DNA of 32,666 nt, taken from the NCBI GenBank assembly GCA_022821105.1, contig JAJEEH010000104.1, forward strand, positions 1-32,666, read 5' to 3'. The notes under the pieces are model-generated. The model was not told the DNA's origin. It did not search any database and saw only the letters and a program-made list of their open reading frames with translations. The stretch is from Acidimicrobiia bacterium (GTDB lineage: Bacteria > Actinomycetota > Acidimicrobiia > Acidimicrobiales > Bin134). The position numbers and the translations under genes are program-made. Numbering within the stretch: the first letter of the stretch is position 1; each line of letters opens with the position of its first letter. This document shows, one piece after another, positions 24,533 through 32,597 of the stretch.

Positions 24533-24543
24533 CGCATAATGCG
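24533..24543. promoter_or_regulatory. Candidate -10/palindrome in the amidohydrolase-glnS gap
   Basis: CGCAT-A-ATGCG, an 11-bp palindrome, lies midway between the two divergent starts and contains CATAAT, close to a -10 hexamer reading toward glnS. No convincing -35 at 17 bp was found in either direction. Confidence 0.28.
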
Positions 24544-24580
24544 TTGCCGGTCGGTCCGAAATCGGTCAAGGATGGTGGAT

Positions 24581-26284
24581 ATGAGCAATGCCGGGAACCC
24601 GGGAGGAGATGAGCCCGGCGAGCGCAGCGACTTCATCCGCAGTCTGATCCGCCAGGACATCGCCGATGGCGTCTATGGCGGCCGCGTGCAGACTCGATTC
24701 CCGCCCGAGCCCAACGGTTATCTCCATATCGGCCACGCCAAGTCGATCTGCTTGAACTTCGACTTGGCCGCCGAATTCGGAGGCACCTGCAACCTGCGAT
24801 TCGACGACACCAACCCCGAGACCGAGCGGGCCGACTTCGTGGCCGCCATCGAGGAGGACATCGCCTGGCTGGGCTACGAATCCGACCGGGGCACCCTGTA
24901 CGCCTCCGACTACTTCGAGCAGCTCTACCAGTGGGCTGAGTACCTCATTCGGGCCGGGCTGGCCTACGTGGACGACCAGGACGCCGAGGCCATCTCTGAG
25001 AAGCGGGGCAGCTTCACCGAGCCGGGTACCGACAGCCCGTGGCGCAACCGCACCGTCGAGGAGAACCTCGACCTGTTCCGGCGGATGGCGGCCGGCGAGT
25101 TTGCCGACGGCGAGCGGGTGCTGCGGGCCCGCATCGACATGGTCCATGAGAACATGCTCATGCGCGACCCGGTGCTGTACCGGATCCGCCACGCGAGCCA
25201 TCATCGCACCGGGGAGAAGTGGTGCATCTACCCCACCTACGACTGGGCCCACGGCCAAAGCGACGCGGTGGAGGGGGTGACCAACTCCATCTGCACTCTG
25301 GAGTTCGACGCCCACCGCCCGCTGTACGACTGGTTCTTGGACCACCTCGATCTGCCCGGCGACCGCCCTCGCCAGACCGAGTTCGCCCGCTTGAACATCA
25401 CCCACGCCGTGTTGTCCAAGCGCCGTCTCTCGCAGCTGGTGGACGATGGCCATGTGGACGGCTGGGACGACCCCCGCATGCCCACTTTGCGGGGTCTTCG
25501 CCGCCGGGGCTTCCCGCCCCACGCCATCCGGGAGTTCTGCCGCCACATCGGGGTGGCCCGGGTGGACGGCACCGTGGAAGTGGAGTTGCTGGAGTCGTTC
25601 GTCCGTCGGGAGCTGAACGCCACCGCGCTGCGCCGGATGGCGGTGCTCAACCCGCTGCGGCTGGTGATTGAGAACTACCCCGAGGGCCAAGTGGAGATTC
25701 GAGAGGCGGGCAACAACCCCGAAGACCCCTCAGCCGGCGCCCGGGAGGTGCCATTCACGAGGGAGCTCTATATTGAGCGGGACGACTTCATGCTTGATCC
25801 GCCCCCTAAGTTCTTCAGGTTGTCACCGGGGCGGGAAGTGCGGCTGCGGTCGGGCTACTTCGTGACTTGCACCGGGGTGGACACCGACCCCGACGGCAAC
25901 GTGACCGCAGTCCGCTGCACCTACGACCCCGAGACCGGCTCAGGCCAGGCCCCCGACGGCCGCAAGGTGAAGGCCACCATCCACTGGGTATCGGCCGCCC
26001 ACGCCCTAGAAGGCCAGGCCATCCTTTATGAGCGCCTGTTCACCGACCCCCACCCCGGCGCCGACGGCGCCGACCCCATGGACTCGCTCGACCCCGACTC
26101 GGCCCAGCTCATCGAAGGAGCCCGCTTCGAGCCCGCCATGGCCGACATCTCCCCCGGCCAAGTGGTCCAGTTCGAGCGCCTCGGCTACTTCGCCAGCGAC
26201 CCCGAAACCCCCAACCTGTTCCACCGCACCGTCGGCCTAAGAGACGAATGGGCCCGCATCCAAAAGCGCCAGCGAGGGAAGTAG
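24581..26284 (+). CDS. glnS: Glutamine--tRNA ligase (GlnRS)
   Basis: GlnRS charges tRNA-Gln directly with glutamine using ATP. The 567-residue product has the class I signatures PPEPNGYLHIGHAKS (HIGH at 49-52) and VLSKRRL (KMSKS-like, 277-283). FDDTNPETE, CIYPTYDWAHGQSDAVEGV and EFDAHRPLYDWFL are GlnRS-specific. The C-terminal anticodon-binding beta barrels run from about 350 (REVPFTRELYIERDDFM, and DGRKVKATIHWVSAAHA). ATG 24581 lies 8 nt after AAGGA. Length and motifs separate it from GluRS, which lacks this C-terminal pair. Most actinobacteria instead make Gln-tRNA by the GatCAB amidation route, so a GlnRS here is noteworthy. It converges on the RCC1-repeat gene with a gap of 18 bp. Confidence 0.95.
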   Translation: MSNAGNPGGDEPGERSDFIRSLIRQDIADGVYGGRVQTRFPPEPNGYLHIGHAKSICLNFDLAAEFGGTCNLRFDDTNPETERADFVAAIEEDIAWLGYESDRGTLYASDYFEQLYQWAEYLIRAGLAYVDDQDAEAISEKRGSFTEPGTDSPWRNRTVEENLDLFRRMAAGEFADGERVLRARIDMVHENMLMRDPVLYRIRHASHHRTGEKWCIYPTYDWAHGQSDAVEGVTNSICTLEFDAHRPLYDWFLDHLDLPGDRPRQTEFARLNITHAVLSKRRLSQLVDDGHVDGWDDPRMPTLRGLRRRGFPPHAIREFCRHIGVARVDGTVEVELLESFVRRELNATALRRMAVLNPLRLVIENYPEGQVEIREAGNNPEDPSAGAREVPFTRELYIERDDFMLDPPPKFFRLSPGREVRLRSGYFVTCTGVDTDPDGNVTAVRCTYDPETGSGQAPDGRKVKATIHWVSAAHALEGQAILYERLFTDPHPGADGADPMDSLDPDSAQLIEGARFEPAMADISPGQVVQFERLGYFASDPETPNLFHRTVGLRDEWARIQKRQRGK

Positions 26285-26302: not shown

Positions 26303-27859
26303 TCAGGGCAGAAGGGCCGCCCGATTGCCGTTGCCCCAACACACCACGGTCTGGTCGGGGCGCAGCCCGCAGACATGCAACCGCCCGGCGGCAAGAGCGG
26401 TAAAGCGCTCGTCTGGGGGCGCAGTCAGTTGGTCGCCGTGGTTGCCGCCCCAGCAGATCGCAGTCTGGTCGGGGCGCACGCCGCATGAATAGAAGGCACC
26501 GGCGGTGACGGCGATGAACTGGCCAGATGGCACTTCAGCTTGTCCTTGGTTGTTGTTGCCCCAGCTGATCGCAGTTTGGTCGGAACGCACGGCGCACGCG
26601 TGCCCCCCGTTCCCCACCGCCACAGACAAGAATGGGGCTTGTTGGGGATCCGGAAGTGATCCCAAGACTGTGGGTTTGCCCCAGCAGGCTACGGAGCGGT
26701 CGGCGCGGAGCCCACACCCCTGCTGTCCGGAAACATCAATGGAAATGAGCGGGTCAGGAGGTGCGTTACCTTCTCCGCTGTCGATGTTGCCCCAGCATTC
26801 AACGCTCTGGTCAACGTATAGTCCGCAGGAGTGCGCTCCCCCTGCGCCAACGCTGATGAACTGACCGAATACCGCGGCGGTCCGACCATGACCACCGTGG
26901 CCCCAGCAGGTCGCAGACTGGTCGATTCGCACTCCGCACGCGTGGCCCGAGCCGGTGCTGATATCGGTGAATTGCCCTTGCGGGACCTCCAGTTGCCCGA
27001 AAGTGTTGTCACCCCAGCATTCAACGGTCTGGTCGGTACGCAAGCCGCAGGTGAAATCCCCTTCAGAAGTGATGGTGGTGAACTTTCCCGTTGGAGCGGC
27101 CATCCGATTGTCGTAATTTCGCCCCCAGCAGACTGCGGAGTGGTCAGGACGCAACCCGCAGGTGTACTCGAAGCCGACGCTCAAGGAAATGAACTGGCCT
27201 TCAGGTGCCCTGGCTTGACCGAAGTTGTTGTTGCCCCAGCAGATTGCGGTTTGGTCGGCTCGCAGCCCGCATGAATGCAAACTACCGACATCGATGGTGA
27301 TGAGTGGCTCTGACGGCACCCCCAGTTGGTTGTAGGTGTTGTCGCCCCAGCACTCAACCGACTGGTCAAGGCGAAGTCCGCAGGTGTGAGCCCGTCCAGC
27401 ACCAACGGCGACGAACTGGCCGGGGGGCTCATCCCTTTCTCCCGCCTGGTTGAATCCCCAGCAGTCCAGAGTTCCATCGGTCAACAGCCCACAGGAGTGC
27501 ATGGTGCCAGAGTCAATGGCAGTGAACTGGCCCTGAGGTGCGTCCAGTTGCCGAAAGTGGTTGTGGCCCCAGCACTCAACGGTCTGGCTGGGGCGAAGCC
27601 CGCAAGTGAAGCGGCCGCCTCCCGATAGAGCGTTGAACTCACCTTCAGGCGCCGAGGTTTGATCCGCGATGTTCTCCCCCCAGCACTCAACGGTCTGGTC
27701 AGGGCGCAGGCCGCACGCGTGGTAGTTGCCAGCGGCAAGGGCAGTGAACTCGCCTGATGGCGCATTGAGTTCCCCTTGGGAATTGCTGCCCCAGCAGACA
27801 ACAGTCTGGTCAGTGCGCAACCCGCACGTGTGGTCTGCTCCCGCGGCAAGTTGGATATA
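26303..27859 (-). repeat. Tandem ~111-bp coding repeats (RCC1-like), about 14 units
   Basis: Within the RCC1-protein gene a ~111-bp unit recurs about 14 times, seen on the plus strand as CCCCAGCA...TGGTCGG...CGCAGCCCGCA blocks. Copies are diverged at many positions but keep phase, showing expansion by duplication. One unit (near 26,555-26,595) has TGG preceded by Ser instead of Cys (AISWG). Confidence 0.85.
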
Positions 27860-28447
27860 CCGGTCGTCGGCGGTGGGAGCAGCAACCGGCTGTAACTCTG
27901 GGGACTCGGGCTGGGAAGACTCGGATGCCGTATCTTCTTGCTGGGCCTCCTCTGGCGTTGCCGTCGGCTCAGGGTTTGGTTCGGATTCGATGTCTGTGGT
28001 TTGAGTTTCCTCCGTTGGCCCAGAGTCCTGTTCCGGTTCAGTTGTCGATTCCGGTGTAGGGGCCTGCTCGGCGAGAGGGGTCGGTTTCGGAGCGGGAGTT
28101 TGCTCGGGGGTGGTCGCAGGGGCTGGAGGAGCTAGGTCTCCGCCCCTGGTCTCGGGAGGTTCATTTTCTTGGGCTGGGTCGCCATCTTCAGGTTGGGGGG
28201 TGGCATCAAAGTCGTCATTGGTATCGAAAAATTGCGTCTCTAGAGGGGCTTCGTTGTTGTTGGCGATGGCCTGAACGCTGACGATGATGGCGGCGACCAG
28301 GGCGAGCACAGTGATCCCGGCACCCAGCCGCTGGTTTCGCCGACGTCGCCGGGCGCGAGCGCGGATCTCACCCATCGACGACTGCTCGACTCGAATGCCG
28401 CCCGCTCTTCGGTCGAAATGGTCTCTTAGTTCGTCGTCAATTCCCAC
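26303..28447 (-). CDS. Membrane-anchored RCC1-repeat protein, partner of the ECF sigma factor
   Basis: A 714-residue predicted single-pass membrane protein. Residues 1-41 are short, charged and probably cytoplasmic (VGIDDELRDHFDRRAGGIR, then a run of Arg). Residues ~42-62 form a transmembrane helix (GAGITVLALVAAIIVSVQAI). Residues ~65-195 are a Pro/Glu/Thr/Ala-rich linker, and residues ~197-714 are about 14 repeats of ~37 residues with the consensus HxCGLRxDQTVxCWGxN, like RCC1 propeller repeats. Most repeats carry a Cys pair, probably disulfide-bonded outside the cell. The GTG at 28447 has GGAGG six bases upstream and overlaps the sigma factor stop by 11 bp, implying coupled translation. By position it would be the anti-sigma or sensor partner, but it has no recognisable zinc anti-sigma domain. 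That role is inferred from location and topology only. Confidence 0.82.
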   Translation of the reverse strand: MGIDDELRDHFDRRAGGIRVEQSSMGEIRARARRRRRNQRLGAGITVLALVAAIIVSVQAIANNNEAPLETQFFDTNDDFDATPQPEDGDPAQENEPPETRGGDLAPPAPATTPEQTPAPKPTPLAEQAPTPESTTEPEQDSGPTEETQTTDIESEPNPEPTATPEEAQQEDTASESSQPESPELQPVAAPTADDRYIQLAAGADHTCGLRTDQTVVCWGSNSQGELNAPSGEFTALAAGNYHACGLRPDQTVECWGENIADQTSAPEGEFNALSGGGRFTCGLRPSQTVECWGHNHFRQLDAPQGQFTAIDSGTMHSCGLLTDGTLDCWGFNQAGERDEPPGQFVAVGAGRAHTCGLRLDQSVECWGDNTYNQLGVPSEPLITIDVGSLHSCGLRADQTAICWGNNNFGQARAPEGQFISLSVGFEYTCGLRPDHSAVCWGRNYDNRMAAPTGKFTTITSEGDFTCGLRTDQTVECWGDNTFGQLEVPQGQFTDISTGSGHACGVRIDQSATCWGHGGHGRTAAVFGQFISVGAGGAHSCGLYVDQSVECWGNIDSGEGNAPPDPLISIDVSGQQGCGLRADRSVACWGKPTVLGSLPDPQQAPFLSVAVGNGGHACAVRSDQTAISWGNNNQGQAEVPSGQFIAVTAGAFYSCGVRPDQTAICWGGNHGDQLTAPPDERFTALAAGRLHVCGLRPDQTVVCWGNGNRAALLP

Positions 28448-28970
28448 GGGGATCCTCCACAAGATCGGCGAGGCGGTCGAGGGCGCGGCTGAGCCGGCTC
28501 TTGACCGTTCCCGGAGCGATGTTCAGGGCTTCCGCGATCTGGCGCTCCGACCAGTCGAGGTAGAAGCTGAGCACCACAACCGAACGCTGGCCCGCGGAAA
28601 GCTGGGCCAGTGCCGTGTCCAGTCGGTTGACAACTCCCAGCGCGACATCTTGGCCATCCCGCGGTGCGGGCAACGGCCTGCCGTGGAGCTTGCGTAGAAG
28701 GGAGCGGGCCCAATTGAGCCCCACTCGGTACACCCAACCGGCAGGGTTTTGATACTTGCCCACCGTGGTCCAGCGCTGGTACGCCCTGGTCATCGCCTCG
28801 GCGGCGGCCTCATGGGCCAGGTCTACGTCGCCAAGCGTTAGCGACAGAGCCCGACAGACACTGTCGTGATGCCGTCGATAGAAGACCTCAAAGTCGGGCA
28901 CACCCTCTCTTCGAAGCTCGGAGAACTCAATCTCCTCCGTCGCACCGTCGTCCGGGCTTCCCCCTCGCAT
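28437..28970 (-). CDS. ECF-type RNA polymerase sigma factor
   Basis: A ~177-residue sigma-70 family ECF factor directing RNA polymerase to a small stress or envelope regulon. Region 2 is FEVFYRRHHDSVCRALSLTL, followed by GDVDLAHEAAAEAMTRAYQRW (the -10-binding region). The linker runs PAGWVYRVGLNWARSLLRK. Region 4 is ALAQLSAGQRSVVVLSFYLD, then WSERQIAEALNIAPGTVKSR, with the helix-turn-helix that binds -35. ATG 28970 is proposed since the ECF-like promoter just upstream would give a very short leader; GTG 28982 is the alternative. Its stop overlaps the RCC1-membrane-protein start, the classic sigma/anti-sigma gene arrangement. Autoregulation is suggested by GGAACC-N16-CGTTT upstream. Confidence 0.92.
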   Translation of the reverse strand: MRGGSPDDGATEEIEFSELRREGVPDFEVFYRRHHDSVCRALSLTLGDVDLAHEAAAEAMTRAYQRWTTVGKYQNPAGWVYRVGLNWARSLLRKLHGRPLPAPRDGQDVALGVVNRLDTALAQLSAGQRSVVVLSFYLDWSERQIAEALNIAPGTVKSRLSRALDRLADLVEDPRGN

Positions 28971-28990
28971 GGCTCCGTCCACTGCTATCT

Positions 28991-29017
28991 AAACGCCTGA
29001 GACCTCTCCTTGGTTCC
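28991..29017 (-). promoter_or_regulatory. ECF-type promoter of the sigma factor gene
   Basis: On the minus strand GGAACC (29017-29012) and CGTTT (28995-28991) are separated by 16 bp, close to the GGAAC/CGTT consensus of many ECF-dependent promoters. A start site about 7-10 bp downstream would fall near 28,983, just before the sigma factor start codon. This suggests the sigma factor activates its own operon. Confidence 0.6.
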
Positions 29018-31799: not shown

Positions 31800-32597
31800 T
31801 CAGTCTCTGACGGGCCAGCGTTCGGCGGTGGTGTTGGTGGTGGGCCAGGCGTCGGCGTTGAGGGCGGCGTCGCTGCCACCGTCCATGAACACCAGCGAGC
31901 CGCAGAAGAAGCTGGCGTCGGGCGACAGCAAGAACGCGAGCAGGTTGGCCACCTCGGCGGGGCGGCCGGGGCGGTTCTGGGGGATGGGGTACACGTCGCC
32001 CAGGTTCATGATCATGTCGAGGTTGTCGGCCACCAACGGGGTGTCGATGAGGCCGGGGGCCACGGCGTTGAGCCGGATGCCCGAGCCGATCCAGTCGTCG
32101 CCGATGGCGGTGCGGCGAACCCAGCGGGCCAACGCCAGCTTGCTGGTGGCATAGGCCGTGCCCGGGTCGGAGCCAGCCAGGTCCCGGGCTTGGGTCTCAT
32201 CGTCGTCCAAGCAGGCCTCCACCAGGCCATCGGGCAGGTCCACCAGCGTGGTACAGGAGTTGGAGCTGATGGCCACGGCCGAGGAGTCGGTGCCCTGGGC
32301 CAACAGGGGGCGCAGCCCCTCCACGGTGGCCACTGCCCCGAAGTAGTTGATCGACACCACCTGCTGCGGATCGGGACCGGTGATCCCCGCGCCAGCCACT
32401 AGGCCGTCGATGCGGCCCCCGCTGGCGGCGGCCACCGCACCGATCATCGCGTTGCGCCCCTCGGGAGTTGAGAGATCGGCAATGACCTCGGCGTCGCGGA
32501 TATCCACCCCAATCACCTCGTGGCCGTCTCGGCTGAGCCGCTCCCTAGTGGCTTGGCCGATTCCGCCTGCTGATCCGGTGATGACAATCGTTCCCAT
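31800..32597 (-). CDS. Short-chain dehydrogenase/reductase (SDR)
   Basis: A 265-residue classical SDR, an NAD(P)-dependent alcohol/ketone oxidoreductase. The cofactor loop is TGSAGGIGQ (7-15). The DI segment IGVDIRDAEV follows, and AGAGITGP stands for the NAG motif. The active site is SSNSCTT (Ser) with YATSK (Tyr, Lys). VAPGLIDTPL follows, as in many 3-alpha-hydroxysteroid dehydrogenase-type members. The C-terminal tail is long. ATG 32597 precedes the first beta strand. It converges on the lipoprotein gene. The GC returns to the high level typical of the window, which bounds the low-GC segment. Substrate is unknown, perhaps a steroid or terpenoid alcohol given other oxidoreductases nearby. 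Confidence 0.88.
   Translation of the reverse strand: MGTIVITGSAGGIGQATRERLSRDGHEVIGVDIRDAEVIADLSTPEGRNAMIGAVAAASGGRIDGLVAGAGITGPDPQQVVSINYFGAVATVEGLRPLLAQGTDSSAVAISSNSCTTLVDLPDGLVEACLDDDETQARDLAGSDPGTAYATSKLALARWVRRTAIGDDWIGSGIRLNAVAPGLIDTPLVADNLDMIMNLGDVYPIPQNRPGRPAEVANLLAFLLSPDASFFCGSLVFMDGGSDAALNADAWPTTNTTAERWPVRD

Follow-up and report, generated by a model that had tools for sequence, protein, structure and literature searches.

Which signal does an ECF sigma factor serve when the gene that overlaps its own encodes a membrane protein with an outer RCC1 propeller? ECF sigma factors are a main route by which bacteria read their surface, and to our knowledge many of those found in Actinomycetota have no recognised regulator. 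Such a gene pair lies on the stretch of 32,666 nucleotides of DNA from an uncultured member of the Acidimicrobiia analysed here, which we refer to as the window. A first-pass annotation, made from the letters of this DNA alone, had proposed it as a candidate new sigma/anti-sigma pair acting as an envelope sensor. Below, we discuss the features of the two proteins, the conservation of the pair, the promoter that precedes it, and the explanations that can account for them.

The sigma factor and its membrane partner

The first gene encodes a protein with sigma2 and sigma4 domains and without sigma3, as is characteristic of ECF (sigma70 group 4) factors. Searches of Pfam detected Sigma70_r4_2 at 5.9e-17 and r2 at 6.2e-05, the latter being a weak match just under its cut-off, and the protein scores above the NCBIfam cut-off for TIGR02937. 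Its top NCBIfam model is the SigE family TIGR02983, at 105.8 bits against a curated cut-off of 141.55 bits, and the protein is thus SigE-like without reaching membership of that family. The first-pass annotation had placed the end of the pair at position 28970, which is 12 bp short: the sigma start codon is the GTG at 28982. It had correctly described the overlap, with 11 bp between the TGA of the sigma gene and the GTG of the partner gene at 28447, as well as a GGAGG belonging to the partner itself, which lies 6 nt before this GTG. The overlap of the genes is consistent with translational coupling of the sigma factor and its partner.

Table 1. Features of the sigma/partner locus and its surroundings (positions in the window)
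Feature	Position	Strand	Remarks
glnS gene	24539-26284
Single-pass membrane partner, 714 aa	26303-28447	-	GTG start at 28447; stop ends at 26303
14 RCC1 repeats	26306-27862	-	Likely two 7-bladed propellers
Extracellular Pro/Glu/Thr-rich linker	27863-28255	-	Residues 65-195
Membrane helix	28262-28321	-	Residues 43-62; hydropathy
Cytoplasmic tail, putative anti-sigma element	28322-28447	-	Residues 1-42: helix 1, loop, Arg-rich helix 2; tail alignment, AF2 helices, no Cys or zinc motif
ECF sigma factor, 181 aa, SigE-like (sigma2 + sigma4)	28437-28982	-
Shine-Dalgarno GGAGG of the partner gene	28454-28458	-	Inside the sigma gene; sequence read directly
-10 element GCGTTTA	28990-28996	-	First base 14 nt before the sigma GTG; spacing common to most relatives
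-35 element GGAACC of the predicted autoregulatory ECF promoter	29012-29017	-	Conserved before sigma relatives
Predicted lipoprotein gene, 892 aa	29087-31765	+	No Pfam match; between the SDR gene and the sigma operon, outside the promoter
SDR gene	31800-32597

The partner had been described as a protein with a short charged N-terminus, one membrane helix and a linker, and this layout was recovered: an Arg-rich tail of about 42 aa precedes the membrane helix, and the 131-residue linker that follows consists of 20% P, 17% E and 15% T. The earlier remark that no zinc anti-sigma motif is visible also held, and could be extended to relatives. Firstly, none of the 56 tails that we examined contains HxxxCxxC, the hallmark of zinc anti-sigma factors (ZAS, class I), or indeed any cysteine. 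Secondly, the roughly 42 residues before the membrane helix fall short of the size of a class I anti-sigma domain (about 100 residues), the cytoplasmic domains of this class having a mean of 101 residues (PMC7406223). The layout is instead that of class II (CnrY-like) anti-sigma factors, in which a short two-helix tail is followed by a membrane helix, as judged from the tail alignment and from the helices in the AlphaFold (AF2) model. The tail profile matched no solved anti-sigma factor in the PDB, such tails diverging fast, and the tails gave no consistent family and no meaningful match in Pfam.

The outer part had been estimated to contain about 14 RCC1-like repeats, and their number is exactly 14. 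The repeat length is 37 aa, with two spacings of 40 and 38, and Cys-x10-Cys is present in each repeat except one; the second cysteine is gone in repeat 12 (AISWG). The repeats score far above the Pfam cut-off (RCC1_2, 3.4e-74; PF13540, 243 bits against 22), and both sequence and model assign a propeller fold. The partner encoded by the congener G119 likewise contains exactly 14 repeats despite an identity of 47%, which fits two 7-bladed propellers. Among solved structures, those nearest in sequence are BLIP-II, a secreted inhibitor, and the outer parts of CRINKLY4 receptor kinases from plants, with CRINKLY4/ACR4 being the best (1.7e-27 by sequence; model match with Z 16.0 and 32% identity). 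RCC1-type propellers were also matched by a single-sequence AF2 model of the ectodomain, which is of modest quality (mean pLDDT 68), the other four of five models being poor. Relatives of the RCC1 part from viruses were of no help in fold modelling, being too distant.

Conservation of the pair and exchange of its outer domain

In a survey of 198 genomes of the order, 45 contained a relative of the sigma factor at an E-value below 1e-20, and in at least 55 of 58 such loci the sigma gene is followed, with an overlap or a short gap, by a gene for a single-pass membrane protein. When the 53 pairs with a sigma identity of at least 43% are considered, the partner start lies within -1 to -17 of the sigma stop in 50 of them, which is far beyond chance, and the overlap is 4 bp in 33. 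The membrane helix of these 53 partners starts between residues 37 and 64, and their tails follow a common pattern: a first helix with LR..L...A, a Gly/Pro loop and a second helix with RA.RRRRR, directly before the membrane helix. The same gene order and tail are also found in Actinoplanes, Micromonospora, Nocardioides and others. Furthermore, sigma factors that are further apart in sequence also have tails that are further apart (r 0.35; permutation maximum 0.11), a value inflated by shared ancestry, whereas no such correlation is seen for the adjacent membrane helix (r 0.07), an imperfect control because such helices saturate quickly. Together, these data support the view that the sigma factor and its membrane partner are a conserved functional unit; the absence of the pair from relatives, which would have spoken against the first-pass proposal, is not what we observe.

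The outer domains of 53 scanned partners, as assigned by Pfam and NCBIfam, are diverse: RCC1 was found in two, BNR/sialidase-like domains in four and FG-GAP in two, with single cases of Vps10-like, transglutaminase and PASTA domains. In addition, 18 of 53 partners carry at least two [ST].[DN]GxxW motifs, which are typical of BNR propellers, where shuffles gave an expectation of 0.05. RCC1 repeats accompany this sigma factor in only two species. In a third, the congener G176, the sigma factor (68% identical), the tail (57% identical), the membrane helix and the linker are kept without a propeller. The partner gene of G176 (L044:10202-10954) runs into the antisense end of glnS, indicating that the propeller was lost or never gained. 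The best reading of these comparisons is that the outer domain is an exchangeable module on a conserved tail. The RCC1 form is thus a rare variant of a widespread arrangement, and the proposal of a new kind of sigma/anti-sigma pair does not stand: the same architecture is widespread in Acidimicrobiales and in other Actinomycetota, where many partners have other propeller-like domains. What does gain support is the proposal of a sensor and regulator, as the pair is a conserved unit in which no zinc motif was detected and in which a short conserved tail stays constant while the outer domain changes, as expected of such a protein.

Within the genus, this sigma factor is present in only 3 of 22 species. 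In the two relatives with the operon, identity reaches 89-93% for the flanking SDR and glnS genes and is lower, at 68-72%, for the sigma factor. In most congeners where both were seen, the SDR and glnS genes are direct neighbours. Since this junction is empty in most congeners and holds unrelated cargo in others, the operon occupies a variable site. The other cargo comprises a lone secreted RCC1 gene (L308; G200), a PIN-like gene (L296), a pentapeptide-repeat-like gene (L307) and an ATPase gene (L301). The lipoprotein gene of the window is absent from this place in G119 and G176, and a 31% identical relative of its product is encoded at the same junction in G209 (L295).

A conserved promoter and the probable role of the partner

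A paired-word search of the regions before the sigma genes detected GGAAC-N16-GCGT in 23 of 53, with at most 5 occurrences of any word in shuffles. In a fuller set, GGAACC-N15-GCGTNTA precedes 49 of 66 sigma genes (shuffle mean 6.4), and, counted from the first base of the -10 element, the distance to an in-frame start codon is typically 12-14 nt; judged from sequence, the sigma mRNA is probably leaderless. This conserved promoter is new here, and its position just before the sigma genes points to autoregulation. The promoter in the window (28990-29017) is the sole exact match in the 3.28-Mb assembly.

For structural comparison, a fused chain of the sigma factor and the tail was taken from the DNA of the window, the word CCCC being treated as one residue, and modelled with AlphaFold using an alignment of sigma rows only. 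Most of the sigma factor has a pLDDT above 90. The tail is helical (residues 178-193 and 203-242 of the fused chain), it is poorly placed (pLDDT about 57-76), and the model gave no readable interface between the tail and the sigma factor. The best superpositions of the compact sigma part are with sigma factors, or mimics of them, taken from complexes with anti-sigma factors, and not with forms bound to RNAP; its match to CnrH in the CnrH-CnrY complex has a Z of 14.4, at 2.7 A over 139 residues. In the model, this compact form may be independent of the tail.

Our preferred reading, to which we give a probability of roughly 0.6, is that of an autoregulated ECF sigma factor with a membrane-bound regulator, the latter combining a minimal anti-sigma tail of the CnrY type with a sensor domain that can be swapped. 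The two tail helices would embrace sigma2 and sigma4, as the two helices of CnrY do (PMC4598750), and the outer propellers would bind a ligand or a surface partner. Once freed by binding or proteolysis, the sigma factor would transcribe the operon that encodes it, perhaps together with a small number of envelope genes. The outer module would be exchangeable, being RCC1 here and BNR/sialidase-like or of another fold in relatives. Anti-sigma action is the likely role of the tail, with gene position and shape suggesting inhibition.

The lack of further exact promoter matches in this genome beyond the operon itself would also fit a simpler explanation, in which the sigma factor merely drives the expression of a surface RCC1 protein that is itself the output, as an adhesin or inhibitor, and the basic tail is a topology signal. 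The genus is rich in secreted RCC1 proteins, and BLIP-II provides a precedent for RCC1 propellers as secreted inhibitors. However, a pure topology signal explains neither the conservation of the first helix and the loop across many genera nor the correlation between tail and sigma distances; the tail is retained where the propeller is missing, and most other RCC1 genes with known starts begin with signal peptides or lipoboxes. We therefore regard this explanation as unlikely.

It is also conceivable, as an extension of our preferred reading and compatible with it, that the pair forms a surface-remodelling circuit that also switches on secreted RCC1 proteins, sensor and output sharing a fold. 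A parallel is RsgI/SigI of Clostridium thermocellum, where a GH10 module is common to RsgI6 and the target-type enzyme Xyn10D (PMC4711584). In G119, GGAACC-N15-GYGTNT has three genome-wide matches, before the sigma gene and before two genes for secreted RCC1 proteins of 1013 and 697 aa (L252:2318-5395 and L253:1771-3910), one of which has the same 14-nt leaderless spacing; the first is probably leaderless. On the other hand, two species that lack this sigma factor keep the site before orthologues of one target, and a second ECF pair, found nearly genus-wide (L094:7463-10031 in G000:C239; orthologues L103-L121), with a single-pass partner and a BNR-like outer domain, has a promoter of the same class (GGAACC-N15-GCGTCGT). 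The link to an RCC1 regulon is thus a lead only. Furthermore, the pattern counts are near those of a reversed-pattern control, and in the genome that contains the window, several of whose RCC1 genes are incomplete at the 5' end, no non-self match precedes an RCC1 gene. The promoters in G119 are therefore suggestive and ambiguous, and we consider such a circuit doubtful. Finally, the tail might be an activator or an obligate membrane tether of the sigma factor, like some FecR-type proteins, which gene order and tail conservation fit equally well and which we consider the least probable, because inhibition is generally known to be the role of most single-pass partners characterised at this gene position (PMC7406223, PMC4598750).

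Relation to known systems and significance

The preferred reading places the pair closest to CnrH/CnrY of Cupriavidus metallidurans, a class II system that also has a very short two-helix tail with one membrane helix and no zinc motif, and whose sigma factor in complex resembles the sigma part of our fused model. However, CnrY shows no detectable sequence similarity to the window tail and senses via CnrX (PMC4598750), whereas the window partner has a large ectodomain of its own. Among SigE-family ECF factors of Actinomycetota with an overlapping membrane partner (TIGR02983), the relatives in Actinoplanes, Micromonospora and Nocardioides have the gene order and tail of the window, but no RCC1 repeats in the partners seen. 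SigI/RsgI of C. thermocellum is likewise an autoregulated sigma factor with a single-pass regulator, the paralogues of which differ in an outer module that can correspond to a module of the regulated proteins; the proteins are nevertheless unrelated, the N-terminal segment of RsgI has about 165 residues, and sigma-I lacks sigma4 (PMC4711584). Plant CRINKLY4/ACR4 also crosses the membrane once and exposes a Cys-rich propeller of the RCC1 type, but this receptor is eukaryotic and its inner part is a kinase. ECF57 sigma factors are likewise associated with a repeat domain, which is of the WD40 type (PMC8999054); there, the WD40-like domain is a C-terminal extension fused to the sigma factor itself and not a separate membrane protein. 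More distant partners show weak, sub-threshold matches to the CU044_5270 family (NF038083) over the tail and membrane helix, whereas the window protein has no match. In our literature search, we found no paper on ECF sigma or anti-sigma factors with RCC1, nor any that describes a bacterial sigma partner whose outer domain is RCC1.

It is tempting to speculate that Acidimicrobiales possess lineage-wide sigma regulators built from one minimal two-helix tail and interchangeable propellers, and that the ligand or partner sensed by the RCC1 version is shared by secreted RCC1 proteins, whose genes it would switch on; we consider this combination improbable. More generally, the short conserved tail, which in our data is combined with different outer domains, marks such sigma regulators without any zinc motif, and the promoter motif allows the prediction of their regulons.
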